NCBI GenBank assembly: GCA_013375485.1
Contig: JABXKB010000009.1
Coordinates: 1-35,132, forward strand
Reading direction: 5' to 3'
From: Promethearchaeota archaeon
Lineage (GTDB): Archaea; Asgardarchaeota; Lokiarchaeia; Sigyniarchaeales; SOKP01
DNA length: 35,132 nt
In this document: in pieces, positions 4,691 to 28,771 of the stretch
How positions within the stretch are numbered: the first letter of the stretch is position 1
How the letters are laid out: every line of letters begins with the position of its first letter
The notes under the pieces: model-generated
Told to the model about the DNA's origin: nothing
The model's input: the letters and a program-made list of their open reading frames with translations, nothing else
Databases searched by the model: none
Translations under genes and position numbers: made by a program

Positions 4691-7600
4691 ATGTCAAGAG
4701 TAAGATTAGATAGCAATAACACTTTAGTTATAATTGGACAACACCCATCATTTAAAACTTATGATGAGACTGGTGTTTTATTTGGTGGTGTTTCTAATGC
4801 TGAATTTTCGTGTGACCTTAATAAACAAAAAGTAGGCGCTATAGGATCTAAAAATTTTCATATAAACAATATAAATAGACATCCAGATATAGAATTATCT
4901 ATAGATTATTTGTTTAATCCATACATGAGGAATGAGACTTACTTAGGTCTTGGTGTATCAACTGGTCTTAATTATAAACCAACTGGCTTCATAAAAGGAG
5001 CGGAAGACAAGTCTTATAACTTTTATTTTTATAATCATCCAGATCAAGGATTAGATTCTATAGAATACTTTAAATCTCTAGATCTTTTAAATCCCAATAG
5101 TGGAGAAATATTTTCTTTTGGTAATGCTTACTTAAATAGTTACGAGCTTTCTTTTGAAAACGGTTCTATTCCTGTTGCTAGGACTTCTTATATTTGCTCT
5201 AATATGCAAGGAGATACTTATACTGGTAATGTAAAATCTCCAGCTATAAATCTAGCTTCTGGAAACGCAAATGAAGTTGGAAACCTTGTTGTTTCTGGAA
5301 CTGTTTTGTCTGGAATTGATCCTACTACTAATCAATATTTTGACTTAACAGACCCAAGCGTTCATGCTCCGCCTTGTGGTTTAACGATAGATTTTGCTAA
5401 TTTACAAATTGGAGGACAAAAACTAGATAGAACAGACCATAGGTTAACTAGCTTAAATGTTGCTATACCTATAAACAGAGTTGACTTGCAAGGACTTGGT
5501 TCTGATTATGTATATGGAAGAAAAGTAAAGTACCCTTTAGAAGGCACTTTAAATATAAACTCAAATGTTTCTGCTTATCAAACTGGATTTGTTTCTGGAT
5601 TGTTAGCAAATGAAGAGTTTTACTCTTTTAATTTAATAGCAAAAACAATAGATGGAACTTTTGCTTCAATATTAAAATTCTCTGACGTTCGTTTGCAAAA
5701 TTTCTCTTATCAAATGCAAGTAAATGGAAGTATGTCTTATAGCTCTTCATTTTCTTTTAATGTTAATAATGAAGAGGATTTCAACTTTTGGACAACAGAA
5801 TTTAGGGACACAATAGTATTTAACTCTATAGGTGATGTTATAAACCAAACAGCCGCAAGTATACCAGATGAATGGAGTAAGAATGATACCAACGCGGCTA
5901 GGCTTCAAATAGGAACGACAGCTTTATCAATAGGTCAAGAAGCTTTTTCTGGTTGTGTTAATATGACTGGAGGTTTGACTATACCAGATTTTTCAGAGGA
6001 CATAGGAAGCGCAGCTTTTAAAGATTGTAGAAATCTTGATGGAAGCCTGTATCTTCATGATAGTTTAGAAAATATAAAATATCAAACTTTTTATAATTGT
6101 TCTGGTTTTGATGATTTATATTTAGGAAAATCAATAAAATACATAGGACAAGAGGCTTTCTATAATTGTACAGGTTTAAGTGAAAGTTTAGTAATCAGAA
6201 ACACAATAACAGGAATAGATGACAGGGCTTTCGCTAACTGTTCTGGATATACAAAAAGCATTACCATATCAAACAATTTTACAACAAGCCTTGGTGTTAA
6301 TGTTTTTTCTGGTTGTCAATTTAATAAATTGGTAATCGATAATTCTTTAGTTTATGTTAACGATCTGGACTTCGATAGTTTTTCCAACTCAAACGTTTTA
6401 TTAAAGCTTCCAGATTATATAACTGGCGTTGGAGATAATTCTTTTGACAATTATTCCATTACAGGGTCTTTGCAATTACCGCCGTTTTTGAAAGACATAG
6501 GTAAAAGAGCTTTTTACAATAATAATTCATTAAATGGATTTATAGTAATAAACGATGTTGTAGAACACATTGATGACGAGTCTTTCTATGGTTGTTCTAG
6601 TTTAAAAGGAAATCTGATATTGCCCAATAGTTTAACTGGTTTAGGTAATTATGCTTTCGCTGGATGTGAAAGCCTCGGTACTGGTTTGTCTATATCAAAT
6701 TCTATAAATACAATACAATCTGGTACTTTTTCTGGTTGCGCTGGATTCTCTGGAGATCTTTCTTTGGGCGAAAATATTCAAAATGTTGAAGCTGCAGCAT
6801 TCTTTGATTGTTCTGGGTTTGATGGCAAGTTAACAGTCATAGGCCCAAAAACATTGGCTATTGACTCTTTCCAAAATACAAACTTCAATAACTTAACAAT
6901 AGATAAAGTTGTAACTATTAACGATGGTGATTTTGATGCAATTCAAAACAGCTTAGTTTCCTTGACTATAGGATCAGAAACCACCACAATAAATCAAAAA
7001 TCTTTTGATGTTTATAGTTTCACTGGAGGTTTAAACCTAAATAATGTTTCTTTAGTGGGTGACAGTGCATTTTCTGGAGTCAACGGTTTAAATGGTAATC
7101 TTGACTTAACTGGTGTAACAGGTTTGGGCGTAGGAGCATTCCAAGACTGCAATGGTTTCGATGGTCAACTTTTGATGCCTAGCTCTATAACTGCAGTAAA
7201 AGAAAAAACATTTTACAATTGCGAGAATTTAACTGGATCTATAAATATACCAAATTCTGTTACTGGTTTAGGTGATTTTGCATTCTACAATAATACTGGT
7301 TTTTCCCAGCTTAATTTAAATAGTGGTTTGAATTATATCGGTAAAAACACTTTTGAAAATTGTATAAATTTGAACGGAAGCGTAAACCTGCCAGACACGA
7401 TTAGTTTTGTGGACGACTATGCTTTTGCTTCATGTTCTAGTTTAAATGGATCTTTAGGTCTTCCTTGTGATTTAACTGGTTTAGGTGTTCATTCTTTTTC
7501 TGGTTGTTCATTTGCGGGTCAACTTTCTGTGGGCAGCGGTTTAAATATTCCAGCAGATTATTTTAATGGTTTTTCTTTTAATCAATTAAATATAAAAGGT

Positions 7601-11484: not shown

Positions 11485-12543
11485 CTAGGAAATATGGGAT
11501 AAAATAGAGTCTACTGTGTTTGAATAGGTAAACTTGTCTGCTAATTTTTGTCCATCTGTGTTGATTTGTCCTACCTTTTTTTCGGCTTCTTCCATAGCTG
11601 AAATGATTTGATCTTGTTCCCAATCAAAGAAAACACCTTGATTAAAGTCCCTTCCTTTAGCAAAGAATCTCCCGTCATAACACTCGAAAGTTCCAGATGG
11701 TTCTATTAAAATAGAATTTTGTTCGTTTGCCCAATCCTTATGAGAAGTTGCATTTAAAACAATACTCCATTTTCCCAAGCAAGTAGCATTAAAAGCTGGC
11801 AAGTTCCAACCCTCTCCTCCAGAAAGACCTGTAAGATCAATATCAATTGCATTAAGCAATTCATTAACTTGATCATTCTTTTTAAGGAAAGGTATTAAAT
11901 TAATGTTATTGTATCTTTCTCCTTCAAGAGCCATGTTTATCGTATTTATTAATTCTTCCTTTTCTAAAAACGGATTATTTATTAAACAAGATAATTGGTA
12001 CTTGCTGTTATTGCCATACTTTTTAGCCCAAGTGTTAATGATTTTAGCCGTATGTTTTCTTTTCTCCATTTTACCAAACAAACCAAAATGAGTTACATCA
12101 CTTAGATATGTTTTTTTGGTTTCAAAGAAGTCTTTATCGAAACCAAGTGGGGCATGTGGGCTACTGAATTGATCTCCAGCGTATTTAGAACTGAAAATAG
12201 TTTCTGTTTGGGCGTTACAAATCTTACGTTCTACATCTGTAGGCTCGCTACATTCATAAAACGTATAAAGATATTGGTTTGAGTTTTTTCTATTTTCAGC
12301 GCCATTAAGATGCCAAATCTTTAAGCTCGGTACGCTTGAATTAAGATAGTCGTACCTGTTATTGATGGCGTCTTCAATTCTGGATTTTAAATTCAAATCA
12401 AGATCGTAAGCAGAAAGATCTACGTCTTGATTCATTGGAAAAATTCCAAAATCAACATCCTTTTCAATAAACTCTCTTATAAAATTATAAGAGACATTAC
12501 CAAAACTAAGGCTGTTTAATGGCGCTTCTAATAGAATTTTCAT
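11485..12543 (-). CDS. Glycosyltransferase, GT-B/family-4-like
   Basis: 352 aa. C-terminal LTGLSGGEGWNLPAFNATCLGKWSIVLNATSHKDW resembles the GT4-type 'sr.EGfglp.lEamA.G.pvi.s' region. Confidence 0.6.
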   Translation of the reverse strand: MKILLEAPLNSLSFGNVSYNFIREFIEKDVDFGIFPMNQDVDLSAYDLDLNLKSRIEDAINNRYDYLNSSVPSLKIWHLNGAENRKNSNQYLYTFYECSEPTDVERKICNAQTETIFSSKYAGDQFSSPHAPLGFDKDFFETKKTYLSDVTHFGLFGKMEKRKHTAKIINTWAKKYGNNSKYQLSCLINNPFLEKEELINTINMALEGERYNNINLIPFLKKNDQVNELLNAIDIDLTGLSGGEGWNLPAFNATCLGKWSIVLNATSHKDWANEQNSILIEPSGTFECYDGRFFAKGRDFNQGVFFDWEQDQIISAMEEAEKKVGQINTDGQKLADKFTYSNTVDSILSHIS

Positions 12544-14491: not shown

Positions 14492-15466
14492 ATGAGTATA
14501 TTTGACGAACAAACATCCAGAAAACCAAATCTTTATCCTTGGACAGAAATGTTCATTCAATCAATGCATAATGGTTTTTGGACCGATAAAGAGTTTGATT
14601 TTAAGTCAGATATACATAACTTTAAAACTTCACTTACTGATCAAGAAAGAGAAATTATTGTTCGTACTTTGAGTGCTATTGGACAAATAGAAGTAGCCGT
14701 AAAAACATTTTGGGCTAAACTTGGGGAGAATTTACCACATCCTTCACTTCAAGATCTTGGTTATGTAATGGCGAACACAGAAGTTATTCACAATAACGCC
14801 TATGAAAGGCTTCTTTCCGTGCTTGAAATGGAGGATATTTTTGAAGAGAACTTGAAGCTTGACTGGATTCAAGGAAGGGTTAAATACTTAAAGAAGTATA
14901 CCCATAGGTTTTATAAGGATTCAAAGAAGCAATATTTATATGCTCTTATTTTGTTTACGCTGTTTGTCGAGAATGTTTCTTTGTTTAGTCAGTTCTATGT
15001 TATCAACTGGTTTGCAAGATTTAAGAACGTTCTTAAAGACACCGACCAGCAGGTAAAATATACCCGTAATGAAGAAGATATCCACGCTAAAGTTGGGGCT
15101 AGGATTATTAACACCATTCGTGCAGAGTATCCAGATCTTTTTGATCAAGAATTAATGGATCGTATTGCTCATGAAGCAGAACAAGCTTACGTGGCTGAAG
15201 CCAAGATCATTGATTGGATGGTTAATGGTATTGACGAAGAAGGTTTATCTGCTGACATTCTAAAAGAGTTCGTTAAGAATAGAATCAATGAATCTCTTGA
15301 TATGATTGGATTTAATCCCGTTTTTGATGTTGACAAAAGTAAATTATCGCCTACAATATGGTTTGACGAGGAACTTTTGGGAGACAATATGACAGACTTC
15401 TTTCATGGAAGACCTGTTGAATACTCCAAAAAGGACAAGTCATTCTCTGAAGACGAACTCTTTTAA
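14492..15466 (+). CDS. nrdB: Class I ribonucleotide reductase, small (beta) subunit
   Basis: 324 aa. R2 ligand motifs IGQIEVAVKTFW, NTEVIHNNAY (candidate radical Tyr), LFVENVSLF, RNEEDIHAKVG. Confidence 0.92.
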   Translation: MSIFDEQTSRKPNLYPWTEMFIQSMHNGFWTDKEFDFKSDIHNFKTSLTDQEREIIVRTLSAIGQIEVAVKTFWAKLGENLPHPSLQDLGYVMANTEVIHNNAYERLLSVLEMEDIFEENLKLDWIQGRVKYLKKYTHRFYKDSKKQYLYALILFTLFVENVSLFSQFYVINWFARFKNVLKDTDQQVKYTRNEEDIHAKVGARIINTIRAEYPDLFDQELMDRIAHEAEQAYVAEAKIIDWMVNGIDEEGLSADILKEFVKNRINESLDMIGFNPVFDVDKSKLSPTIWFDEELLGDNMTDFFHGRPVEYSKKDKSFSEDELF

Positions 15467-15474
15467 TACACAAA

Positions 15475-17130
15475 ATGGATAAAAAAATATACTGGCTGAA
15501 TAGAAATTCTAGACAATTTCTAAGTAGAGGTTATCTGACCGAAGGTGAAACGGCAGAATCAAGAATAGAAGATATAGCTAGAACAGCTGAAAAAAAATTA
15601 AAGTATATAGGTTTTGCTGATAAATTTATTGACTATATGCATAGAGGTTTTTATTCCTTAAGTTCTCCAGTATGGAGCAACTTTGGGCGTGAAAGAGGAT
15701 TGCCTATTTCTTGTTTTGGTTCTTATATCGAAGATACTCTTGAGTCTATCACTGGAGACAAACTTGCCGAAGTATCTATGATGACAAAACATGGCGGAGG
15801 AACTTCTGGTTACTTTGGTGATTTAAGGGCAAGAGGGGCATCTATTGGTCAGCAAGAAGGCACAAGCACTGGTTCAGTCCATTTTATGGAGCTTTACGAA
15901 AAACTCATGGAGGTTGTTTCTCAAGGTAACGTAAGGCGTGGTAGCTTTGCCGCTTATCTTCCTATTGATCACGGTGATATTGAGGAGTTTCTTAAGATCC
16001 GTGGCGATGGTCATGAGATCCAAAAAATGAGTATTGGCGTATGTGTTCCAGATAATTTTATGGACGCCATGATTGAAGGAGACAAAGAGAACAGAAGAAT
16101 TTGGGGTCTTGTTCTTAAAAAGAAATTTGAGAGTGGCTATCCTTATATATTTTTCTCTGATAATGCAAACAATCAAGCCCCGCAAGTATACAAAGATAAA
16201 GGGAAAAAGATACTCGCCTCAAATCTTTGTTCTGAAATTATGTTGTCTTCCTCACCAGATGAAAGCTTTGTCTGTTGTTTATCTAGTTTAAATCTGGAAA
16301 AATGGGACGAACTAGTTGAGACTGACGCAGTAGAGACAATGGTTTATTTCCTTGATGCTGTAATGTCTGAGTTTATAGATAAAACAGAAGGTGTAAAATA
16401 CATGGAAGCTCCAAGGAATTTTGCGATTAGACAAAGAGCTTTGGGAATGGGAGCATTGGGTTGGCACTCTTATCTGCAATCCAAGATGATCCCATTTGAA
16501 TCAATGGAGGCTAAAATGGCAAATGCCTCTATCTGGCAGATCATCAGAGAACGAGCAGACAAAGCAACGACAGAATTAGCTATAGATTTTGGTGAGCCAG
16601 AACTTCTTGAGGGTTATGGGCGTAGAAATGTGACCACATTAGCCATTGCCCCGACCACTTCTAGTTCATTCATTCTTGGTCAAGTTTCCCCAAGCATTGA
16701 ACCACTAAAGTCTAACTACTTTGTTAAAGACCTTGCTAAAGGCAAGTTCACCTACAAGAACCCCTACCTCAGAAAACTTCTGACCAAGAAAAAACAAAAC
16801 ACAGAAGAAACCTGGAGGTCTATTCTCGTTCATGGAGGGTCTGTTCAACATTTAGATTTTTTGGATCAAGAAGAAAAAGATGTATTCAAAACATTTGGCG
16901 AGATTTCTCAGAAAGAAGTCGTTATACAAGCTGCTCAAAGACAAAAGTATATAGATCAGGGCCAATCTCTTAATATAGTTGTTCCACCAAGCACACCCCC
17001 TAGAGAAGTAAACCAACTTATGATATTTGCTTGGGAGCAAGGAATCAAATCTTTATATTACCAAAGAGGAGCAAATCCAGCCCAAGAGCTTGCAAGATCA
17101 ATAAACCAATGCGCTTCTTGCGAAGGTTAA
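15475..17130 (+). CDS. nrdA: Class I ribonucleotide reductase, large (alpha) subunit, compact
   Basis: 551 aa. GLPISCFG, NLCSEI, FVCCLSSLNL, APTTSSSFILGQVSPSIEP, KSLYYQRG and C-terminal CASCEG cover the catalytic and redox positions. No N-terminal ATP-cone. Confidence 0.92.
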   Translation: MDKKIYWLNRNSRQFLSRGYLTEGETAESRIEDIARTAEKKLKYIGFADKFIDYMHRGFYSLSSPVWSNFGRERGLPISCFGSYIEDTLESITGDKLAEVSMMTKHGGGTSGYFGDLRARGASIGQQEGTSTGSVHFMELYEKLMEVVSQGNVRRGSFAAYLPIDHGDIEEFLKIRGDGHEIQKMSIGVCVPDNFMDAMIEGDKENRRIWGLVLKKKFESGYPYIFFSDNANNQAPQVYKDKGKKILASNLCSEIMLSSSPDESFVCCLSSLNLEKWDELVETDAVETMVYFLDAVMSEFIDKTEGVKYMEAPRNFAIRQRALGMGALGWHSYLQSKMIPFESMEAKMANASIWQIIRERADKATTELAIDFGEPELLEGYGRRNVTTLAIAPTTSSSFILGQVSPSIEPLKSNYFVKDLAKGKFTYKNPYLRKLLTKKKQNTEETWRSILVHGGSVQHLDFLDQEEKDVFKTFGEISQKEVVIQAAQRQKYIDQGQSLNIVVPPSTPPREVNQLMIFAWEQGIKSLYYQRGANPAQELARSINQCASCEG

Positions 17131-17169: not shown

Positions 17170-18048
17170 ATGGAAGTTGATTTTTCAGATAAAATAAAAG
17201 AAATTAAAAAAAATTTCTCCACAAAATCTATTAGTATTTGTGAGGCTTCTGAAATCATATGTTCTATTATAGCTTCAAAGTGCGAACAGCACAACGATAA
17301 ACACGAAAGTAAAGTATCTGAAGAACAGCTTAAAAAAGTTTATTTTAGGGGTTCAAAATCTTACGATTCTGCCTTTCGCATCGGGAAAACAAGAACTCAA
17401 TGGGCTATGGCTAGAGTTAATTTGTTCCTTAAAATGAATAGAGGTGAAGATGTAAATGATTCTTATCTTATATCAGATAAAGATATACTGATTGATGAAT
17501 CTCAAGCTGACCCAAACCAAGATATTTATTCTTTTGATGATTTTTCTGATATAGAACTGAATCTAGCTTCATTAGATCTTGTTAAATCTGGAATGGAAAA
17601 ATGGAATCAAGATTTTAATTTTGAAGACATTCTTTATTCTGAAGCGGAGAAAAAAACGCTAAACAAACCATTCCGTTTGAAAGATGGCAAGAAGAAGTTT
17701 GGTGTTTATGTAAAAAACCCAAAAACTGGAAATGTTATTTTGGTTAAATTTGGCGATCCAAATATGGAAATCAAAAGAGATGACCCAGATCGCCGCAGGA
17801 GTTTTAGAGCTAGGCACAAATGCGATAGCGCCAAAGACAAAACTACACCTCGTTATTGGTCTTGTAAGATGTGGAGCAAAAAGCCTGTAAACAAATCTGT
17901 TTCCTCTGAAGCAATTGAGTGGGACGAAGAGGAGCTTTTAAGTGAGTGGGGTTGGGATGAATCTTCAATCATAGAAAATGAAGATTATTTTAGAGGTTAC
18001 GCTCACTTAGAAAATATTGAAAATATAATTGAAGAAGAAGACGTTTGA
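17170..18048 (+). CDS. Phage protein with 'KKFGVYVKNPKTGNVILVKFGDPNMEIKRDDPDRRRSFRARHKCD...YWSCKMW' motif
   Basis: 292 aa. I recall this motif from other phage proteins, but function is uncertain. Two recognisable blocks (LKKVYFRGSKSYDSAFRIGKTRTQWAMARVN and the FGDPNMEIKRDD block). Confidence 0.55.
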   Translation: MEVDFSDKIKEIKKNFSTKSISICEASEIICSIIASKCEQHNDKHESKVSEEQLKKVYFRGSKSYDSAFRIGKTRTQWAMARVNLFLKMNRGEDVNDSYLISDKDILIDESQADPNQDIYSFDDFSDIELNLASLDLVKSGMEKWNQDFNFEDILYSEAEKKTLNKPFRLKDGKKKFGVYVKNPKTGNVILVKFGDPNMEIKRDDPDRRRSFRARHKCDSAKDKTTPRYWSCKMWSKKPVNKSVSSEAIEWDEEELLSEWGWDESSIIENEDYFRGYAHLENIENIIEEEDV

Positions 18049-18056
18049 TTTATAAT
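18029..18056 (+). promoter_or_regulatory. Sigma70-like promoter for the glycan cassette
   Basis: TTGAAG (18029-18034), 16-nt spacer, TATAAT (18051-18056), 8 nt before ATG 18065. Confidence 0.45.
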
Positions 18057-18064
18057 ATTGCAGT

Positions 18065-18811
18065 ATGTCTACTGTGATATTAAGTTCTTACTTCACCAAA
18101 AAAATACATCCCAACAGTGTTGACGATCAACATGTTGTTGGTCGGATGGATAACAATCACATACAAAAAGATTATTTTCCATATATAGAAAAGTGGTATA
18201 ATTCAATAAAAGACAACGATCTTAATGCTGTTCTTTTTTACGATGGTCTTTCTGATGATTTTGTGAAAAACTATGAAACAGACAAAATAAAGTTTATTGA
18301 AGTTGGCGATTTTATTTACTCAAACAATGATTATAGATTCTTTTGTTTTAGGAATTTTCTAGAAGAAAATAAATTCGATTTTGTTTTTCATACCGATGCT
18401 TCGGACGTTGTGGTGGTTAAAAACCCATCAACTTTAATTGCAAAAAATCCAGAACATTCTTACTTTTGCTGCAAGGATACTCTTCTTTTAGGTCAATTCC
18501 CATATTTGCAAGCTCATGAAAATTATGGATGGGAAGATTATATTAATTGTATGCTAAATCAAAACAACTGGGAATTAATAAACATGGGCGTTGTTGGTGG
18601 TAGATTTGATGACATGCTAAAATTTTATACAAAGTTCTGTGAAACTAGAATAAAAATGGGTGATCCAGATTTTAATTCTGATATGTGGATTTTACAATAC
18701 TTGTTAAGGTTTGTTTTTAAAGACAAAAAATTCTTAATGGGTGAACCTGTTTGCAGTGAATTTAAAAAATACCAAAACGATAGAAAAGATGTCTACTTTA
18801 TACACAAGTGA
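18065..18811 (+). CDS. GT-A-fold-like glycosyltransferase
   Basis: 248 aa. FDFVFHTDASDVVVVKNPS (DxxD-type metal site) and INMGVVGGRFDDMLKFYTKF...NSDMWILQYLLR, resembling GMA12/procollagen-type transferases. Confidence 0.55.
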   Translation: MSTVILSSYFTKKIHPNSVDDQHVVGRMDNNHIQKDYFPYIEKWYNSIKDNDLNAVLFYDGLSDDFVKNYETDKIKFIEVGDFIYSNNDYRFFCFRNFLEENKFDFVFHTDASDVVVVKNPSTLIAKNPEHSYFCCKDTLLLGQFPYLQAHENYGWEDYINCMLNQNNWELINMGVVGGRFDDMLKFYTKFCETRIKMGDPDFNSDMWILQYLLRFVFKDKKFLMGEPVCSEFKKYQNDRKDVYFIHK

Positions 18812-19781
18812 AGATGCGGTAGATTACTGCATAAAAAACGAATTCAAAAATAACACTATAGAATTCAACAAAAGCTATTTAGAAAGCCACGATCATATTG
18901 GTGAGCTTGAACTTTTAATAGAAATAAAAGGTCATGAAATAAACGTAATCAATAACAAATGTACACAAGGCAACGAATGGAAGTTCCAAATGTTTATAAA
19001 CTTTCTAGACTTAGTTTTGAAGACATACAAGTTGGATTTAGATTGTAGGTTTGTAGCATGTATAAATGACGGAGTTCCGCTTACAGATAAATATACCAAG
19101 TTTTCTACTTTTGGTCGTCACTATTCAAGTAATCATATAGGTTTGCCAGACCCTTTAGTTTGCGGTAGTTTAACTTTTGGGCAAAAGATAAGAGATTATA
19201 TTACGCAAGATATTCCATTTAAAAACAAAAAAGATGGTATGATTTTCAGAGGTTCTGACACAAGCAAACAAAGAGAAAATTTATTAAACCAAAGAATGAT
19301 GTTTTGCTTAGATAATAAAAATTCTAATTTTATAGACGCTAAGATAACACTTTTTGCTCACTATACAGACAAGATGCTTGAAAATCACAAGATTAACAAA
19401 AGCGAAATATATGCAGAAAGAACATCACCTAAAGAGCAATTAGAATATAAATACATGGCTTATATAAACGGCAACACCGTTTCTGGGGATAGGATGATGT
19501 GGCAAATGGCTTCAAACTCTTTGCTTGTTCAAGTAGAGCCAAAAGATAATGAAGATGATTATATTTGGTATCATTCTTTCTTAAATAGTTTAGATATACT
19601 ACCAACATTTCCAGAGGAAACTTTTTTTGAAGACTTCACAGAGTTCGAATTAAAATACGATGTAGAAGAGATAATCAAAAGGCAGCAACATTTCGCTTCG
19701 ATTATACTTGACGCAGGATTTCAAATGTTATATACTAAAGAGGCTTTAGAAAAATACAACGAATTATACAATGCTAGTTAG
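18789..19781 (+). CDS. Glycosyltransferase family 90 (CAP10/LpsA-like)
   Basis: The supplied ORF starts at 18741, but MSTLYTSEDAVDY (ATG 18789) gives a more typical overlap. MIFRGSDTSKQRENLL...SPKEQLEYKYMAYINGNTVSGDRMMWQMASNSLLVQVEPKDNEDDYIWYHSFL is GT90-like. Confidence 0.68.
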   Translation: MSTLYTSEDAVDYCIKNEFKNNTIEFNKSYLESHDHIGELELLIEIKGHEINVINNKCTQGNEWKFQMFINFLDLVLKTYKLDLDCRFVACINDGVPLTDKYTKFSTFGRHYSSNHIGLPDPLVCGSLTFGQKIRDYITQDIPFKNKKDGMIFRGSDTSKQRENLLNQRMMFCLDNKNSNFIDAKITLFAHYTDKMLENHKINKSEIYAERTSPKEQLEYKYMAYINGNTVSGDRMMWQMASNSLLVQVEPKDNEDDYIWYHSFLNSLDILPTFPEETFFEDFTEFELKYDVEEIIKRQQHFASIILDAGFQMLYTKEALEKYNELYNAS

Positions 19782-20364
19782 TCATAAATTAAAATTTTTA
19801 TACATTCATATACCTAAAAATTGGGGTTCTTCTCTTTATACTTCTTTTAAACAAGTTGATGAAGATCTTATTGATACCCATATGCCAGATGAAGGTAATA
19901 GGGTTGACAAAACACACATGCTTCCTCAACACCATTGTAAATATGAAGTGATACAATCAGCCATAGATGATGGTTATAAAATTTTCTCTACAATAAGAGA
20001 ACCAGAAGATAGGTTTTATTCTTTTCTTAAATATGCAAGAACATATTTAAACAACCCAAATCATAGATTTTATGATTATTGTTACATAAACGCAATAAGA
20101 AACAAAGCTTATCTACAAAGTTGTATGTTTATACATGGTTGTCCTCAATCTGAATTTATTTATGATGGAGAAAGAAAAATAACAGATAAAGATTTTCTGT
20201 GTGATGAAAACCTTTTTGAAAATCTTTCAGAATATTTTGGTGTCGAAATTAAAGGTTCTCACAAAAACCCATCACCAGAAAACGTGGAGAACAATATAGA
20301 GTTTGATGATTTTAAAGATATATATAAACTTGATCAACAGCTTTATAACGCATTAAAGTCATGA
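19771..20364 (+). CDS. Sulfotransferase-family protein
   Basis: 197 aa. 5'-PSB-like FLYIHIPKNWGSSLYTSF and 3'-PB-like IFSTIREPEDRFYSFLKYAR. Confidence 0.72.
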   Translation: MLVSHKLKFLYIHIPKNWGSSLYTSFKQVDEDLIDTHMPDEGNRVDKTHMLPQHHCKYEVIQSAIDDGYKIFSTIREPEDRFYSFLKYARTYLNNPNHRFYDYCYINAIRNKAYLQSCMFIHGCPQSEFIYDGERKITDKDFLCDENLFENLSEYFGVEIKGSHKNPSPENVENNIEFDDFKDIYKLDQQLYNALKS

Positions 20365-21290
20365 AGATTTGTTTTTTAGCTCCAGGAGAAATAGAAATCC
20401 CACCTAATGGCTGGGGAGCTTTAGAGACTGTTTTATGGAACCAATATAATTCTCTCAAGAAACTTGGTCACGATGTTTATTTTATTAATGATAAAAACAC
20501 AAACTCTACTTATAAAAAAATATTAGAAATAGATCCAGATGTGGTGCATCTTCATTATGGTAAGCATTGGGAAATAATGCCAGATCTAAAGTGCAAAAAA
20601 ATAGTAACATCTCACGATGGTAGTTTTTTAAACAGCAAACCATTTCACGAACAACTTGTAAGAAAATTTTATTATGATTGCACGTTTTTTTGTTTAACTA
20701 GTTTCGAAAGAGAATTCTTTTTAATGCTTGGGATTTCTCCAAACAAAGCTTTTATTTTACCAAACGGGGTTGATTATAATAAGTTTAACAGGGTTCCAAA
20801 AGAAAACGCAAAACATAAGGGGTCTAGTATATGTTTGGGTAAAATAGATTCAAGAAAGAGGCAGTCTATTCTACAAAAACAAACATCATCGGTTATGTTC
20901 GCTGGCGCTTGTGAAGATCCATCATTTGATACAAACAGCTACAGCTATCTTGGCGTATGGGATAGAGTTGATGTATATAGCCAGTTGACACACTATTCAA
21001 ATTTAGTCTTGTTATCAAATACCGAATTACAACCCCTGGTTTGCTTGGAAGCTTTAGCTGCTGGTTTAGGATTAGTCATATCAGAGGCTTGTGTTGAAAA
21101 CCTTGATACTAGTAAAGATTTTATAAATGTCATACCAAACAACAAGATAAACAATATAGATTATATTGAAAAAGTAATCAAAACAAATGCAGAAATTTCT
21201 TTAAACAGCAGGGAAGATATATATAAATATGCTCAAACCTTTGACTGGTTAAATATAGCAAAAAAATGGTTAGAACTCAACAACAAATAA
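20361..21290 (+). CDS. Glycosyltransferase family 4-like
   Basis: 309 aa. MKICFLAPGEIEIPPNGWGALETVLWNQYNSLKKLGHDV, ILPNGVDYNKF and LQPLVCLEALAAGLGLVISEA. Confidence 0.82.
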   Translation: MKICFLAPGEIEIPPNGWGALETVLWNQYNSLKKLGHDVYFINDKNTNSTYKKILEIDPDVVHLHYGKHWEIMPDLKCKKIVTSHDGSFLNSKPFHEQLVRKFYYDCTFFCLTSFEREFFLMLGISPNKAFILPNGVDYNKFNRVPKENAKHKGSSICLGKIDSRKRQSILQKQTSSVMFAGACEDPSFDTNSYSYLGVWDRVDVYSQLTHYSNLVLLSNTELQPLVCLEALAAGLGLVISEACVENLDTSKDFINVIPNNKINNIDYIEKVIKTNAEISLNSREDIYKYAQTFDWLNIAKKWLELNNK

Positions 21291-21291
21291 T

Positions 21292-21993
21292 ATGAATGTA
21301 GCACTTTGTTATTCTGGACAGTTAAGAGATTTCAAAAAGTGTTTTGAAAGTCACGTTAAGCATATTATAGAACCGAACAAAGATTGTAATTTTTTTATAT
21401 TTTTACATTCTTGGGCGGACAAAGACCTTGAAGGAGAATCTTATTTTAAAGATAGGATGGGTAGAGACAGGGGTTTTTATAAAACAGATAACGTATCTGA
21501 AGTTTTACATGTTAATCCAGACTCTTTGCTAATTGAAAAGCCTATGAATTTTCAAACAGACCTTGTTCCAGACCCAAGGTTTCCTCATCCTATGCAGAAT
21601 GTTTTATCTATGTATTACTCAATAATGATGAGTAATGAGATTAAAAGAATTTTTTGCTCAATTAGAGGAATCAACATAGATTGGAGCTTAAGAATGAGGA
21701 CAGATCTATTCTTCCAAAAAGATTTAAAACTTTCTGATTACGACAATAAATTAATGTATATAAACAACCAAAGAATACATACAGAATATGCTGTAAATGA
21801 TTTGTTTAGTTTCTCTAGTGATGATAACATGAATCATTATTCTCAAACATTCAATAGGATACCAGAAATGGCATCTAATGGTTGTGCAGTAAATCCAGAA
21901 TGTTTTTTGGGTTTTAATTTGAAAAATTGCGATATGGAAATTAAAAAAGAAAATTTGCAAAGAAACATTTATAATCTTTTAAGGGACATATGA
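21292..21993 (+). CDS. Putative glycosyltransferase-like protein ('CYSGQLRDF' family)
   Basis: 233 aa. N-terminal MNVALCYSGQLRDFKKCFESHVKHII...FIFLHSWADK is similar to the 24586-25332 product. Function inferred from neighbours. Confidence 0.45.
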   Translation: MNVALCYSGQLRDFKKCFESHVKHIIEPNKDCNFFIFLHSWADKDLEGESYFKDRMGRDRGFYKTDNVSEVLHVNPDSLLIEKPMNFQTDLVPDPRFPHPMQNVLSMYYSIMMSNEIKRIFCSIRGINIDWSLRMRTDLFFQKDLKLSDYDNKLMYINNQRIHTEYAVNDLFSFSSDDNMNHYSQTFNRIPEMASNGCAVNPECFLGFNLKNCDMEIKKENLQRNIYNLLRDI

Positions 21994-23348
21994 TAGAATT
22001 ACTTTTATTTGATTTAGATGGTGTTTTGGTTGACGCAAAGGAACTTCATTACGAAGCTCTTAATGATGCTCTTTCTGAAATTGGAGAAGATTTTATTATT
22101 TCAGAACAAGAACACTTAACTGTATACGATGGTTTAAAGACTAGGTCGAAATTGAACATACTTTCAGAACAAAAAGGTTTACCTAGAAAATTTCATGATC
22201 AAGTTTGGGAAAGAAAACAAAAGATAACATCTAAAAAAATACAAGACTTAGAGCACAACCAAGATCTTATAAAACTTTTTAAACACTTAAGATCAAAAAA
22301 TTTAAAAATAGCATGTTGTTCTAATTCTATAAGAAGATCTGTTATTTTAATGCTTTCTAAAGTTGGCATCATTGAATACTTTGATTTAATAATGTCCAAC
22401 GAAGATGTTAAAAATTCAAAACCCCACCCGCAGATATATTGGGACGCTATGTCTATTTTAGGTTTTACTCCAGAGCAAACCTTAATAGTTGAAGATTCAC
22501 CAAACGGCCTATTAGCCGCTCAAAGATCTGGAGCAAACGTTGTCAGAGTAAAAAACGTACAAGATTTAACTATCGAAAAAATAGAAAGAAACATTTTAAA
22601 AACTAAAAATATGAAAACAAAATGGCAGGATAGAAACCTTAATGTATTGATACCTATGGCTGGTGCTGGTAGTCGTTTTGAACAAGCTGGTTACACGTTC
22701 CCCAAGCCTTTGATTGAGGTTAATGGTAAACCAATGATTCAAGTCGTAGTAGATAATTTAAACTTTGAAAGCAAATACACTTTTATTGTTCAGAAAAAAC
22801 ATAGAGAAAAATACAACCTTGACTCTATGCTTGGAATGATATCAGATAAACCGAACGTTGTTGAGGTTGATGGTATTACTGAAGGCGCAGCTTGTACAAC
22901 ACTATTAGCTAAAGAACTAATAAATAATGACAACCCTTTAATTATTGCTAATTCAGATCAGTTCGTTGATTGGGACACAAGCGAGTTTATGTATAAGATG
23001 CAAGAACAAGATCTTGATTGTGGAATATTAACCTTTAGATCTACTCACCCCAAATGGTCTTTTGCTAAAATTGACGAAAATGGTTTTGTTACTGAAGTCG
23101 CAGAAAAGAATCCTATTTCAGATATAGCTACTGTAGGAATTTATTATTGGAAAAAAGGATCTGACTATGTTAAATATGCAGAGCAGATGATAGAGAAAAA
23201 CAAAAGATTCAATAATGAGTTTTATGTTTGTCCAGTTTTCAATGAGGCTATAGAAGACGGGAAAAAGATTAAAACCTTCGACATTGAAAAAATGTGGGGA
23301 CTTGGAACTCCAGAAGATTTAGATATATTTTTAAAGAACAACGAGTAG
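21990..23348 (+). CDS. Bifunctional HAD-family phosphatase/phosphoglucomutase-like + sugar nucleotidyltransferase
   Basis: 452 aa. HAD motifs LLLFDLDGVLVD, CCSNS, SKPHP, VEDSPNG, followed by NTP-transferase VLIPMAGAGSRFEQAGYTFPKPLIEVNGKPMIQ and IIANSDQFVDWD. Confidence 0.85.
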   Translation: MIELLLFDLDGVLVDAKELHYEALNDALSEIGEDFIISEQEHLTVYDGLKTRSKLNILSEQKGLPRKFHDQVWERKQKITSKKIQDLEHNQDLIKLFKHLRSKNLKIACCSNSIRRSVILMLSKVGIIEYFDLIMSNEDVKNSKPHPQIYWDAMSILGFTPEQTLIVEDSPNGLLAAQRSGANVVRVKNVQDLTIEKIERNILKTKNMKTKWQDRNLNVLIPMAGAGSRFEQAGYTFPKPLIEVNGKPMIQVVVDNLNFESKYTFIVQKKHREKYNLDSMLGMISDKPNVVEVDGITEGAACTTLLAKELINNDNPLIIANSDQFVDWDTSEFMYKMQEQDLDCGILTFRSTHPKWSFAKIDENGFVTEVAEKNPISDIATVGIYYWKKGSDYVKYAEQMIEKNKRFNNEFYVCPVFNEAIEDGKKIKTFDIEKMWGLGTPEDLDIFLKNNE

Positions 23349-23350
23349 AT

Positions 23351-23959
23351 GTGATACACGAAGGACAAAAGATTATATTCATTGGCAATCCAAGAGCTTG
23401 TACAACGAGCTTAAGTAAACTCCTTAAGCCAAAGGGTTTTAATTTTAAATTTTGGCATGACCCAGTTCAATATTATATAGATAATATAAAAAATTATCAA
23501 AACTATGAATACTTTATGATTTGCAGAAACCCTTACGATAGATTTTTATCTTGGTGGTTTCAATTAAGAAGACATTCTCACGATTTTATAATGAAATATA
23601 AATCGTTTGAAGAGTGGATCAAAAGCGGAGAATATCATGACTTTCCAAAAAGAAAAAGAGGAGATCCTAGACCACCAAGAACTTATTGGCAAACACATTG
23701 CCCATTAAAACAGTTTGATTTTATAAAAAACGATAAAGATATACATGTAAACATTCTAAAATTCGAAAAAATTCAAGAAGATTGGATTAATGTTTTTTGT
23801 AAAAAGACGAAAGTTTTTAACACTTCAAATTATCCTAAATTACCGATCACAAACGAAACTAATCATAAAAAATATGAAGATTATTATACAGAAGAATTAA
23901 AAGAAATTGTTTATAATCACGCAAAAGAAGACTTCCTAAATTTTGGATATGAAAGATGA
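23351..23959 (+). CDS. Sulfotransferase-family protein
   Basis: Supplied ORF starts at 23294 inside the previous gene; GTG at 23351 just after its stop is preferred. IIFIGNPRACTTSLSKLL (5'-PSB) and FMICRNPYDRFLSWWFQLR (3'-PB). Confidence 0.72.
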   Translation: MIHEGQKIIFIGNPRACTTSLSKLLKPKGFNFKFWHDPVQYYIDNIKNYQNYEYFMICRNPYDRFLSWWFQLRRHSHDFIMKYKSFEEWIKSGEYHDFPKRKRGDPRPPRTYWQTHCPLKQFDFIKNDKDIHVNILKFEKIQEDWINVFCKKTKVFNTSNYPKLPITNETNHKKYEDYYTEELKEIVYNHAKEDFLNFGYER

Positions 23960-24584
23960 CATAACACAAACAAATTACCACCCAGAGTGGCAGAACAATA
24001 GAATAAAATTTATCCTAGAAAAATACCCAAAAGATTTTTTTAAAGGTAAAAAAATACTTGAGTTGGCTCCATTCAATGGATACATAGGTTCTTTCTTTCA
24101 AAAGATAGGTGCTGAAGTAACTATGGCAGAAGGTAGACAGGAAAATATAGAAAACATAAAACGAGATTACCCTCAAATTAAAAATATTTCCCAAAAAAAC
24201 CTTGATACAAAAGATTGGGATTTGGGTAAGTTTGATGTAATTATAAATTTTGGTTTATTTTATCATCTTCAAAACTTTCATAAAGAACATTTAAAAAATT
24301 GTTTAGACAATTGTGATTTAATGTTTTTTGAAACTGTGGTTTTCGATTCAGATAAGCCAGAAATTCACTTTAGAAGAGAAAATGGAAAGGATCAATCATT
24401 AACATCGGTTGGAGGAAACCCATCTACTTCTTGGTTGCATAATTTTTTCGATGACTATGGTTGTAAATACAAAAAATATTCTTCTTCAGAATTGAACGGA
24501 GGAATACACCACTATGATTGGTTAGACAAAAACACAAGAAAACTTGACTGCGCGGCAAGAAGGTTTTGGATAATAGAAAAATAA
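23949..24584 (+). CDS. Class I SAM-dependent methyltransferase
   Basis: Motif I KILELAPFNGYIGSFFQKIGAEVTMAEGR and FDVIINFGLFYHLQNF. ATG at 23949 preferred to the TTG at 23943. Confidence 0.8.
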   Translation: MKDDITQTNYHPEWQNNRIKFILEKYPKDFFKGKKILELAPFNGYIGSFFQKIGAEVTMAEGRQENIENIKRDYPQIKNISQKNLDTKDWDLGKFDVIINFGLFYHLQNFHKEHLKNCLDNCDLMFFETVVFDSDKPEIHFRRENGKDQSLTSVGGNPSTSWLHNFFDDYGCKYKKYSSSELNGGIHHYDWLDKNTRKLDCAARRFWIIEK

Positions 24585-24585
24585 A

Positions 24586-25332
24586 ATGAAAGTAGCTTTA
24601 GTATTTTTTGGTCAACCTAGATTTATTCATAATCCGAATCCTTATGAATCAAACAAAAATTTCATACTAGATAAATATGAAACTGATGTTTATTGTCATG
24701 CATGGTTCTCAGAAAAAGATTCTGAGTATGACTTTTCTTGTTGGAGTACATTAAAAGAGTGTCCAGTTGAAAAAGACTCTATAGAACATATCAAGAAGTT
24801 ATATAATCCCAAAAAAATACAAGTAGACGAACCAAGGAAGTTTGAATTTTCGGAGGATACTTTTGAAATATTAAACGAAATATCAAAAAACATAGGCAAG
24901 TCTCACATCTTTACTAAGGATACTTATAGTAATGTTCTGTCTCAATCTTGTAGTATTGAAAGAGCCTTGAGGTTAATAGAAAATAAAGAACAGTATGACT
25001 TTATTATATTATCTCGTTATGATAATCAAATTTTTGAGTTTCCAGATCTACATCGTTTAAGCAAAAAAGATATGTATGTAAGTCATATACACAATCGTTT
25101 TCCAGATATGCTGATATTTTTTGGCCCTTGTTTATTAGAAAGTATGTGTTACTATTCCAATATAGAAGATATAATAAAAGAGCATAGCAGTAGGTTTTGG
25201 GAACCTTCAAACGAATGTTTGAAAATGTTTGCCCTTGTTGACTTCATCACTAAGAACAACTCAGAATCAAGACTTGGTTCAGTTAAGATGATTATTAAAG
25301 CTGTAAGAGATTCAAATTCAATAGGCATATGA
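24586..25332 (+). CDS. Putative glycosyltransferase-like protein ('FFGQPRF' family)
   Basis: 248 aa. MKVALVFFGQPRFIHNPNPYESNKNFILDKYETDVYCHAWFSEKD, similar in layout to the 21292-21993 product. Confidence 0.45.
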   Translation: MKVALVFFGQPRFIHNPNPYESNKNFILDKYETDVYCHAWFSEKDSEYDFSCWSTLKECPVEKDSIEHIKKLYNPKKIQVDEPRKFEFSEDTFEILNEISKNIGKSHIFTKDTYSNVLSQSCSIERALRLIENKEQYDFIILSRYDNQIFEFPDLHRLSKKDMYVSHIHNRFPDMLIFFGPCLLESMCYYSNIEDIIKEHSSRFWEPSNECLKMFALVDFITKNNSESRLGSVKMIIKAVRDSNSIGI

Positions 25333-25751
25333 TACAAAAGATAATTTCACATAGAGCCAATATAAAAGGTCCAAACAAAGATTTAGAAAATAATCCAGAA
25401 CAGATTTTAAAAGTATTAAAAATGGGTTTTGATTGTGAGATTGATGTTTGGTTTGTTGATAATAAATTCTACCTTGGTCATGATGAACCGCAATACGAAA
25501 CAGATTATAATTTTTTAAGCCAGACGGGTTTATGGATTCACTGCAAAAATTTTAAAGCTCTTATAACAGTACCCATTAGTTCAAATTATTTTTGGCACGA
25601 AGAAGATGATTATACATTAACATCAAAAAGATATATTTGGACATATCCAAACAAAATAGTTGAAGATAATTGTATTATTGTTGATAATAATGTTGACTGG
25701 ATTAATAAAGGATATAACTGTTTCGGGGTTTGCACTGATTATATAAAATGA
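25329..25751 (+). CDS. Glycerophosphodiester phosphodiesterase-like protein
   Basis: 140 aa. IISHRANIKGPNKDLENNPEQILKVLKMGFDCEIDVWFVDNKFYLGHDEPQYE resembles the GDPD N-terminal pattern (HRG...ENT...G.d.iE.Dv...D...v..HD). Confidence 0.6.
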   Translation: MIQKIISHRANIKGPNKDLENNPEQILKVLKMGFDCEIDVWFVDNKFYLGHDEPQYETDYNFLSQTGLWIHCKNFKALITVPISSNYFWHEEDDYTLTSKRYIWTYPNKIVEDNCIIVDNNVDWINKGYNCFGVCTDYIK

Positions 25752-26779
25752 AAAAAGTAATTATCACAGGGGTAACAGGTCAAGATGGAAGTCACATGGC
25801 AGACTATTTGTTGGCGAACGACGACATTGATATAGTTGCTGGCGTACGCCGACTTTCGGTAAAGAACCACGAAAACATCAAACACTTGGTGGACAACCCA
25901 CGCTTTAAATTAATTGATCTTGATGTCACCGATCAAGCTAATGTTGATCGTGTTATTTTAGAAGAAAAACCAGATTATTTTATCAACTTTGCTGCCAATT
26001 CTTTTGTTGGTGTTAGTTGGGATATGCCAGAAAACCACATGAAGACAAACTGCATGGCAGTTCTTTATCAACTTGAAGCGATTCGTAAGCACTGTCCTTG
26101 GTGCAGATATTACAATGCTGGCTCCTCAGAGGAGTTTGGAGACGTTGTAACCACTCCGCAGGACGAGACTCACCCACTACGCCCAAGAAGCCCCTACGGA
26201 GCTTCTAAGGCTGCTGCAAGGCATTTGGTAAAGGTGTGGCGTGAAAGCTATGGTTTATACGCCATTCAAGGTTGGTTGTTTAATCATGAAGGCACAAGGA
26301 GGGGTGAGGAGTTTCTCACCCGTAAGGTTACAAAAGCCGTAGCTAGAATCGTGAAGGAAATCAGAGATGGCAAAGAAGTAAAACCTCTGGAAATTGGCAA
26401 CCTAGATTCTAAAAGAGATTGGTCAGATGCAGAGGATTTTGTTGCGGGTATCTGGCTAATGCTAAATCAAGAAAAACCAAAAGAATATGTATTAGCTTCA
26501 GGAGAAACATATACCATTCGTGAGTTTGTTGAGTCGGCATTTGGCTTTGCGGGATTTAATCCAGATGAATGCTATTGGGAAGGTGAAGGGACAAATTCTA
26601 AATACTATCATTGTGATCAACTTCTTGTTAAAATAAATCCAAAATATTACAGACCAGCTGAAGTTAATTTATTGCTTGGTGACCCAAGTCTTGCAGAAGA
26701 AGAAATGGGTTGGGTCAGAAAAACAGACTTTTATGGATTAGTAAAAAAGATGGTTGACAATGATATCAACATGCTATAA
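25748..26779 (+). CDS. gmd: GDP-mannose 4,6-dehydratase
   Basis: 343 aa. Rossmann VIITGVTGQDGSHMADYLL, SSEEFG...SPYGASKAAARHLVKVWRESYGLYAIQGWLFNHEGTRRGEEFLTRKVTKAVARI, and LGNLDSKRDW-like EIGNLDSKRDWSDAEDFV. Confidence 0.92.
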   Translation: MKKVIITGVTGQDGSHMADYLLANDDIDIVAGVRRLSVKNHENIKHLVDNPRFKLIDLDVTDQANVDRVILEEKPDYFINFAANSFVGVSWDMPENHMKTNCMAVLYQLEAIRKHCPWCRYYNAGSSEEFGDVVTTPQDETHPLRPRSPYGASKAAARHLVKVWRESYGLYAIQGWLFNHEGTRRGEEFLTRKVTKAVARIVKEIRDGKEVKPLEIGNLDSKRDWSDAEDFVAGIWLMLNQEKPKEYVLASGETYTIREFVESAFGFAGFNPDECYWEGEGTNSKYYHCDQLLVKINPKYYRPAEVNLLLGDPSLAEEEMGWVRKTDFYGLVKKMVDNDINML

Positions 26780-27256: not shown

Positions 27257-28367
27257 CGATTTAAGTTCACAAAGTATACTTGACAACTTCCTTAAAACAC
27301 ACAAGGAAGACCATTATAATTTTGAAGAAGAGATTGATTATAAAGTGTCAAGCGGATCTCTTCAGTTTGATTTACATTTAGGTGGAGGTTTCGGTCCTGG
27401 ATTGCATAGATTCTGCGGCATGAACGAAGGAGGTAAAACAAGCGAAGCGTTGGAGGTTATGAGAAACTTTTTAAACACCGTTCCAGATGGTAAAGGTTTT
27501 TACATTAAAGCGGAAGGAAGGCTTTCTAAAGACATGCGAGAAAGGTCTGGTATAAATTTTGTCTTTACTGCTGAAGAATGGGTTGAAGGAACTTGTTTTA
27601 TTCTTGAGTCTAATGTATACGAAACTGTTTGTGAAATCATGACAGAGTTGGTGGACAATAATCCAGAAAAGTTTAAGTATTGTTTTGTCCTTGATTCTGT
27701 AGACGGCTTAATTCTTAAGAATGATAAAAATAAAGGTTATGAAGATGCTCATAAAGTAGCTGGAGGAGCAAACGTAGCATCTACATTTATGAAAGCTATG
27801 GCTATAAAACTAGGTAAGAGAGGTCATATGGCAATTTTCATATCGCAGGTCAGAGCAGACATTAAGCTTGATCCTTATTCAAAAGCTCCAGTAAGGCAAA
27901 CATCTGCTACAGGAGGTAATGCCTTATTACATTTTGCTAACTGGATTATTGAGTTTGAAGCTAGATACACAAAAGACTTGATACTAAAAAACCCATCAAT
28001 CAAGAAGATGGATGCAGAAAAAAATCCAGCTATTGGTCATTTCGCAAACGTTACTGTTAAAAAATCACCCAACGAAAAAACAAATTTAAGGATAACATAC
28101 CCAATTAAGTATGGTCGCAAAAACGGAACATCTATTTGGCTTGAGAAAGAAATAGTTGATCTTCTTTATGCTTGGGAGTTTATTAAGAAAAGGGGTTCTT
28201 GGATTCAAACGACAGAGGATTTCAAAGAGGTTTTAGAAGAAAACAAAATAGAATTTCCAGAAAAGATGCAGGGTGAAAATAACCTGTTTAAAATAATAGA
28301 AGAAAACGAAGAGGCCGCTTTATTCTTAGTAAAATACTTTAAAGAGGCTATCGGTGAACTGTCATGA
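27249..28367 (+). CDS. RecA/UvsX-like recombinase
   Basis: 372 aa. SGSLQFDLHLGGGFGPGLHRFCGMNEGGKTSEALEVM (Walker A GMNEGGKT), FVLDSVDGL (Walker B), SQVRADIKLDPYSKAPVRQTSATGGNALLHFA (L2-like). Confidence 0.85.
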   Translation: MSSDLSSQSILDNFLKTHKEDHYNFEEEIDYKVSSGSLQFDLHLGGGFGPGLHRFCGMNEGGKTSEALEVMRNFLNTVPDGKGFYIKAEGRLSKDMRERSGINFVFTAEEWVEGTCFILESNVYETVCEIMTELVDNNPEKFKYCFVLDSVDGLILKNDKNKGYEDAHKVAGGANVASTFMKAMAIKLGKRGHMAIFISQVRADIKLDPYSKAPVRQTSATGGNALLHFANWIIEFEARYTKDLILKNPSIKKMDAEKNPAIGHFANVTVKKSPNEKTNLRITYPIKYGRKNGTSIWLEKEIVDLLYAWEFIKKRGSWIQTTEDFKEVLEENKIEFPEKMQGENNLFKIIEENEEAALFLVKYFKEAIGELS

Positions 28368-28771
28368 AGTTTTTAGACCCATTAGGTAGACCAAGAAACC
28401 TAAAGAGTGCTAAAAAATATTTGATTGATTGGGATGCCAAAAGCAGAAGTAAGTTCCAAAGTAGGATTAAAAATTTTTTAAAACCTTACTGGAAAAACGA
28501 TGTAGTTTTTGAAGAGTTCAGAATAGTAGGCACTAAGCTATCTTTGGATTTTTATAATGCAAATAAAAATATCGCAGTAGAAGTCCAAGGAGATCAACAT
28601 ACAAAATACGTTAAGCATTTTCACAAGAATAGGCTTCAATATCTAGATCAACTAAAAAGAGATCAAAAGAAGCTTGACTTTTGCGAGTTTAATGATATAA
28701 AGTTGGTAGAGATTTATACAACTGACGTAGTTAATGCTTCGTTTTTTAAAGATCAAGATATATTTTTATGA
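28364..28771 (+). CDS. Putative PD-(D/E)XK-type endonuclease
   Basis: 135 aa. KLSLDFYNANKNIAVEVQGDQHTKY (D...ExQ) followed by RLQYLDQLKRDQKKLDFCEFNDIKLVEIY, similar to VSR/DUF559-like nucleases. Confidence 0.6.
   Translation: MKFLDPLGRPRNLKSAKKYLIDWDAKSRSKFQSRIKNFLKPYWKNDVVFEEFRIVGTKLSLDFYNANKNIAVEVQGDQHTKYVKHFHKNRLQYLDQLKRDQKKLDFCEFNDIKLVEIYTTDVVNASFFKDQDIFL

Follow-up and report, generated by a model that had tools for sequence, protein, structure and literature searches.

A phage glycan-synthesis and sulfation cassette in an exchangeable slot next to GDP-mannose 4,6-dehydratase

What does a compact run of glycan-enzyme genes, lodged between nrdA and a recA-like gene followed by replication genes, do for the virus that carries it? 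The run occupies positions 18065-26779 of the window, a 35,132-nucleotide stretch of DNA (contig JABXKB010000009.1 of assembly GCA_013375485.1, Promethearchaeota archaeon), and was read in the first-pass annotation as a phage-borne cassette for glycan synthesis and sulfation, a reading that the family calls, sulfotransferase motifs and profile matches reported here support. In our analysis it is a real, intact and exchangeable phage glycan cassette. It is probably an operon for the synthesis, in the host cytoplasm, of a sulfated oligosaccharide, with virion proteins as the most likely destination of the product. As a swappable "type" cassette it fills a fixed slot that has an anchor gene on one side and the gene of a GDP-mannose 4,6-dehydratase (GMD) on the other.

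An exchangeable slot between two anchor genes

We compared the window with 55 relatives found via the neighbouring RecA-like protein, 54 of them viral and one in a Flavobacteriaceae metagenome-assembled genome (MAG); L-numbers denote loci used for comparison. All eleven co-directional open reading frames (ORFs) called earlier are present in 18065-26779, with short overlaps or gaps between them, and are given below with their predicted functions and the features that delimit the slot.

17170..18048, +: left anchor gene, DUF5824-like/PHROG 7595, conserved in relatives
18029..18056, +: promoter-like TTGAAG-16-TATAAT at the left edge of the exchangeable slot, running across the last bases and stop codon of the gene before it; 10/12 consensus, a sequence match only
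18065..25747, +: cargo A-J, exchangeable as a block; against L010, L015, L016 and L017 the breakpoints lie at about 18056 and at 25740-25748
18065..18811, +: A, GT-A-like glycosyltransferase (PHROG 1579 glycosyltransferase, E 5e-7)
18789..19781, +: B, GT90/POGLUT-like glycosyltransferase (Foldseek; start set by homologues)
19771..20364, +: C, sulfotransferase 1 (PF03567, E 3e-4, just under the cut-off; PHROG 3347; motifs for 3'-phosphoadenosine 5'-phosphosulfate, PAPS: IPKNWGSS and REPEDRFYS)
20361..21290, +: D, GT4 glycosyltransferase (PF13439, above the cut-off; PHROG 33732, E 1e-79)
21292..21993, +: E, SGQLR protein of a GT-A-fold family, paralogue of I (PHROG 13607; homology to I)
21990..23348, +: F, HAD phosphatase/mutase fused to a sugar-phosphate nucleotidyltransferase (PF13419, PF00483; PDB 4evw, E 8e-21, and 3kbb)
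23349..25328, +: sub-block G-H-I; L020-L023 and L060 have A-F and J in common with the window but lack these three genes or have others in their place
23351..23959, +: G, sulfotransferase 2 (PF03567, Sulfotransfer_2, E 2e-8, above the cut-off; PHROG 3347; 3' PAPS motif RNPYDRFLS)
23949..24584, +: H, S-adenosylmethionine-dependent methyltransferase (PF13489, above the cut-off)
24586..25332, +: I, FGQPR protein, GT-A-fold glycosyltransferase-like (PHROG 13607; AlphaFold and Foldseek)
25329..25751, +: J, short GDPD-like phosphodiesterase (HRxN, ExD and HD motifs; profile match to GDPD 7e0v, E 2e-4)
25748..26779, +: K, GMD (PF16363, E 8e-103), right anchor of the slot

Apparent overlaps of 55-70 nt are start-codon artefacts, because homologues point to later starts of B, G and H: ATG 18789 rather than GTG 18741 is most likely for B, GTG 23351, just past the F stop codon (23346-23348), rather than GTG 23294 for G, and ATG 23949 for H.

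Close relatives have the same slot, bounded on the left by the gene at 17170 and on the right by GMD, which in the more distant L052, L054 and L055 lies elsewhere in the region. Conserved DNA ends at 18036-18057 and restarts at 25740-25748 (the GMD start codon is at 25748) when the window is set against L010, L015, L016 and L017, and in the pairs L035/L049, L039/L041, L012/L014 and L013/L016 the break likewise falls only a few bases from the GMD start. A TATAAT directly past the upstream stop recurs in several relatives, so that all cargos may be driven by the same promoter. Full slots (n = 22, including the window) measure 2.0-7.7 kb and hold 3-10 ORFs, two longer ones reaching about 12-16 kb, and the pooled cargo of 203 non-redundant proteins falls into 124 families. 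The other cargos consist of glycan genes as well, with GT2 (14 cases), GT6 (three), GT11 (three) and CTP_transf_3 cytidylyltransferases (three), together with sulfotransferases, methyltransferases, an epimerase and a pyruvyl transferase. Judged by its backbone (dnaB 92%, exo 94%), L010 is among the closest relatives, and its cargo is wholly different, including a UDP-GlcNAc 2-epimerase and GT2. No cargo gene in common was detected in the pairs L039/L041, L035/L049 and L012/L014, whose replication proteins are 97.8%, 98.1% and 94.5% identical; phage pairs more than 99% identical mostly have cargo in common. Since near-identical phages can thus lack any common cargo, cargo turnover outpaces backbone divergence.

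These comparisons also redraw the cassette. The genes are not scattered and unlinked in related phages, the outcome named earlier as contrary to a cassette, but are replaced wholesale within the same slot. The family call of GMD stands, by its motifs and PF16363, whereas its membership of the cassette does not: it is retained where the other cassette genes differ entirely and is a gene of the lineage backbone, not cargo. Checked against viral contigs, the order of the cassette genes repeats in relatives L020-L023 and L060 as well as in unrelated viral contigs, which is more than chance. Exchange also occurs within the cargo, the DNA homology with L060 and L021 stopping at 23338-23341 and restarting at 25338, at the edges of sub-block G-H-I. 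In L010 (452-1126) and L019 (1631-2305) the first cargo gene encodes a DUF6445/2OG-oxygenase-like protein (PHROG 1644), apparently marking a cassette type of its own.

The contig is that of a phage, because tail, ribonucleotide reductase and replication genes surround the cassette: the flanks hold a tape measure protein, a minor tail protein and a 1921-aa protein with leucine-rich repeats (LRR), and further ribonucleotide reductase, the RecA-like protein, DnaB, primase, PHP and an exonuclease. The 1921-aa protein (4691-10456) lies in the tail region and has 12 BspA-type LRR_5 stretches; its homologues in relatives reach an open frame of 4398 aa, and pieces of their repeats recur in several smaller ORFs at other places of those records. 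The nrdA and nrdB genes (14492-17130) are 89-94% identical to those of L024/L059, compared with about 76% for the remaining backbone, which suggests that this block recombined separately. Directly after the RecA-like gene, in relatives as in the window, lies a small PHROG 559 HNH/homing-endonuclease-like gene (28364-28771) that could help recombination near the slot.

Predicted enzymes and a block found in unrelated viruses

By sequence, C and G are two credible sulfotransferases. Against the curated 22-bit cut-off of PF03567, G scores 34.9 bits and C just misses with 21.2 bits. The 3'-phosphate-binding motif R-x-P-x-x-R-x-x-S, present as REPEDRFYS in C and RNPYDRFLS in G, is largely retained in 39 phage homologues, with R76, P78 and S84 invariant, and the lysine of the 5' loop is found in more than 90% of these homologues and in C (IPKNWGSS). 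The significant PDB matches of a joint C/G family profile are sulfotransferases, including heparan sulfate 2-O-sulfotransferase. Both ORFs therefore appear to keep the PAPS-site motifs and most of the residues, the check that the first-pass annotation had called for; at sequence level this speaks against the lack of PAPS-binding folds that it had named as refuting. The weight it placed on two sulfotransferases in one cassette is not sustained, since such arrangements are frequent: at least two sulfotransferases occur in 46 of 79 sulfotransferase-anchored viral loci. L097, L102, L129 and L078 are viral contigs with at least four sulfotransferase-like ORFs inside about 16 kb, and one sulfotransferase-anchored viral locus carries eight. 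When viral contigs were scanned with B or G as single proteins, no relatives came up; profile and backbone queries found them.

Homologues of A are the first slot gene in L020-L022, L060, L024, L025 and L059. For B, a low-confidence model (pLDDT 59) has POGLUT2 (9w47, E 6.6e-10) as its top Foldseek match and PBCV-1 AO75L as the next; the label "GT90-like" is tentative, with a weak model behind it and no Pfam match. The "SGQLR/FGQPR" pair described earlier, E and I, forms one family (PHROG 13607) with invariant GQ.R, RxD and E. The AlphaFold model of I (pLDDT 94.5) matches GT6 alpha-1,3-galactosyltransferase (E 1.2e-5) and glycogenin (about 1e-5) in Foldseek with probability 1.0 and a modest TM of about 0.4; as modelled, I has a GT-A fold, and E is probably GT-A-like by homology to it. 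With the class of the pair so revised, the cassette would have at most five putative glycosyltransferases. An additional one lies outside it on the - strand (11485-12543; PHROG 2170, E 2e-10), is 51-68% conserved in relatives L011, L024 and L026 and in the p41 record, and may be the enzyme that opens the pathway by attachment to protein.

F, whose HAD domain is beta-phosphoglucomutase-like, is the most conserved cargo protein, at 85% against L020-L023 and L060 compared with 59-83% for most nearby genes. J keeps the catalytic motifs HRxN, ExD and HD across 30 sequences, but with 140 aa (homologues about 135-170 aa) it falls short of the roughly 240-aa TIM barrel of a full-length GDPD; neither plasmids nor 226 other genomes from the phylum of the MAG gave a comparable match, and J is apparently virus-restricted. 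K belongs to the short-chain dehydrogenase/reductase (SDR) fold family and has the motifs TGQDG, SSEEFG, YGASK and NHEGTRRG and the active-site residues S/T-E-Y-K. Its closest equivalog is NCBIfam gmd, and because its 322 bits lie under the 415-bit curated cut-off, its exact substrate is not certified.

Part of the cargo travels together well beyond this lineage. Within about 8 kb of E/I-anchored viral loci, F occurs in 67 of 77, J in 59 and D in 45; the corresponding counts at sulfotransferase-anchored control loci are 2, 2 and 0 of 72. Many of the E/I-anchored loci are related to each other, so that these counts are not independent events. Named carriers of E-F-I-J-D are Synechococcus myophages such as S-CAM9, S-PRM1 and DSL-LC03. 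We infer that E-F-I-J(-D) is one conserved pathway block.

Product, target and competing explanations

Gene content, slot, breakpoints, swaps, the linked E-F-I-J-D block and the assignments by fold and motif are observed; what we infer from them, from each enzymatic step to the product, where it is attached and why it is selected, is as follows. K would convert host GDP-mannose to GDP-4-keto-6-deoxymannose, and a host reductase, or K itself, would complete the deoxysugar, while F would supply another nucleotide sugar. The putative glycosyltransferases A, B, D, E and I would build a short chain that H methylates and that C and G sulfate with host PAPS, and J may make or break a phosphodiester. 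Attachment to virion proteins would be the most likely fate of the product, an altered host envelope glycan being close behind. Swapping of cassettes by recombination at gene boundaries would give one backbone different glycan types.

Several observations weigh against this scheme. In the 5'-phosphosulfate loop of G (NPRACTTS) an arginine replaces the lysine, as in its closest homologues including L159. No partner reductase of GMD was found in several 45-99 kb records of relatives, where GMD is the only SDR, so a host reductase or a bifunctional GMD is needed and the deoxysugar route is otherwise incomplete; in L017 a second SDR lies just upstream of GMD. L039 and L041 have a common tail type and no common cargo, as would not be expected if cargo simply followed tail type. 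The scan for integrase, PF00303 and APS (adenosine 5'-phosphosulfate) kinase covered ten related records of 52-104 kb that may be fragments, which makes absences from them weak. On the supporting side, no APS kinase was found in those ten records, so the host must supply PAPS, and an APS kinase is present in the MAG.

A less probable explanation than decorated virions, though the strongest of the alternatives, is that the enzymes remodel the host envelope: they would act on the cytoplasmic face to alter lipid-linked precursors of O-antigen or capsule, host flippase and ligase would export these, and superinfection by competitors would be blocked. Such remodelling has been proposed for glycan genes of cyanophages and pelagimyophages (PMC9123017; PMC7029224), and cargo diversity among near-identical phages fits receptor competition. 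In its favour, too, the window and L060 have both cargo and tail type in common across diverged backbones. As a rule, a link between tail type and cargo is ruled out by L039 and L041, whose tails are the same and whose cargos differ, a pair that counts against remodelling as well. A simple hydropathy scan of the 203 cargo proteins gave no hydrophobic segment in 191, one in 11 and two in one, and no multi-pass membrane protein, flippase, polymerase or exporter in any cargo; the cassette alone therefore cannot export a new lipid-linked polymer. The integrase expected of temperate Gtr-type seroconversion was found in none of the ten related records, so that the time for host conversion would be short. 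Because membrane proteins and integrase are both absent, virion decoration is slightly favoured over remodelling of the host surface.

It is very improbable that the region is mere passenger or "stuffer" DNA, or that it serves metabolism and yields no specific glycan. The idea was raised for lipopolysaccharide (LPS) clusters of large cyanophages (PMC3037559), and the region is AT-richer than its flanks. Yet the frames are intact and tightly packed, F is conserved above most of its neighbours, E-F-I-J-D occur together across unrelated viruses, and swaps follow gene boundaries.

The site beside nrdAB and the replication genes could instead mean that the glycosyltransferases hypermodify phage DNA against host restriction, which we regard as very unlikely. 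Phage glycosyltransferases are known to glycosylate phage DNA, according to work cited in PMC12619734. No dCMP-hydroxymethylase/thymidylate-synthase-type gene (PF00303), as used in T4-type DNA glucosylation, was found in the ten related records, and sulfotransferases, GMD and five glycosyltransferases go beyond known DNA glycosylation sets. GT90 and GT6/GT11-type enzymes have glycans or proteins as substrates, which also argues against DNA as the target.

That the contig is a polysaccharide locus of bacteria, or a chimera mis-binned in the MAG (4.6 Mb, 457 contigs), is hardly credible. In its favour, the bin has 9% contamination and 65 genomes of its family gave no close relative of the phage; a chimeric contig was rejected because the independent viral contigs L020-L023 and L060 repeat the gene order, with tail, ribonucleotide reductase and replication genes around it. 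The host is a separate matter. The MAG has no 16S, and the window's own phylum is represented by only 227 searchable genomes. The only genome match to the phage is the Flavobacteriaceae MAG (L063), with two phage-like contigs, and Flavobacteriia are a candidate host group; the window's MAG (G000:C141) and this one seem to disagree on the host, and the window's bin may be contaminated.

Known systems and what the cassette may mean

Phage glycan islands are already known, and the window, a phage contig with clustered glycosyltransferase, nucleotide-sugar and tailoring genes, has the content of one. The LPS clusters of the cyanophages P-SSM2, S-SM2 and S-SSM7 likewise combine phage-borne glycosyltransferase and sugar-nucleotide genes, and S-CAM9 and DSL-LC03 have homologues of E-F-I-J together with glycosyltransferases, as in the window. 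Cyanophages belong to a different phage family, however; the S-CAM9 cluster lies near tRNA, hli and psbA rather than between nrdA and recA, and in the cyanophage regions that we read no sulfotransferase is annotated, whereas the window has two. Sulfotransferases have been named among virome auxiliary genes (PMC8290583; PMC10829341). Pelagimyophages have a hypervariable host recognition island with glycosyltransferases between conserved modules (PMC7029224); that island is in the structural region with tail fibers, in contrast to the compact slot with gene-edge breakpoints and a GMD anchor described here. In mycobacteriophages, virion glycosylation is phage-encoded, with glycans reported on capsid and tail tube (Freeman 2023, as cited in PMC12619734). 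Here virion proteins are a presumed target. We know of no sulfotransferase or GMD cassette in mycobacteriophage virion glycosylation. The chlorovirus PBCV-1, a eukaryotic virus whose AO75L is matched by the model of B, encodes capsid glycosyltransferases and a GMD reported to be bifunctional; to our knowledge its glycosylation genes are not in one exchangeable operon with sulfotransferases. The fixed slot, conserved edges, exchangeable centre and type diversity are those of a bacterial O-antigen or capsule locus, except that Wzx/Wzy, an ABC exporter and an initiating membrane transferase are absent here.

Among open-licence articles we found no description of a GMD-anchored swap slot or of the E-F-I-J block. 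Tentatively, interchangeable, gene-edge-delimited and GMD-anchored cassettes of one uncultivated phage lineage may act as a "serotype locus" through which virions that are otherwise nearly identical come to bear different glycan coats, some sulfated and others not. The core E-F-I-J may be a pathway peculiar to viruses, yielding an undescribed sugar, perhaps phosphodiester-linked, that unrelated marine phages have in common.

If the proposed scheme is true, a phage lineage diversifies its glycan by whole-cassette exchange, like bacterial O-antigens, and the role of glycan diversity for a bacterial virus becomes testable, be it hiding of the virion, receptor change or exclusion of rivals. The question whether the "LPS genes" of cyanophages are functional or stuffer DNA, left open in PMC3037559, becomes directly testable too. 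The E-F-I-J block is a compact linked gene set for finding a new nucleotide sugar. Sulfated glycans made by a phage would be new phage biochemistry, tying infection to host PAPS.

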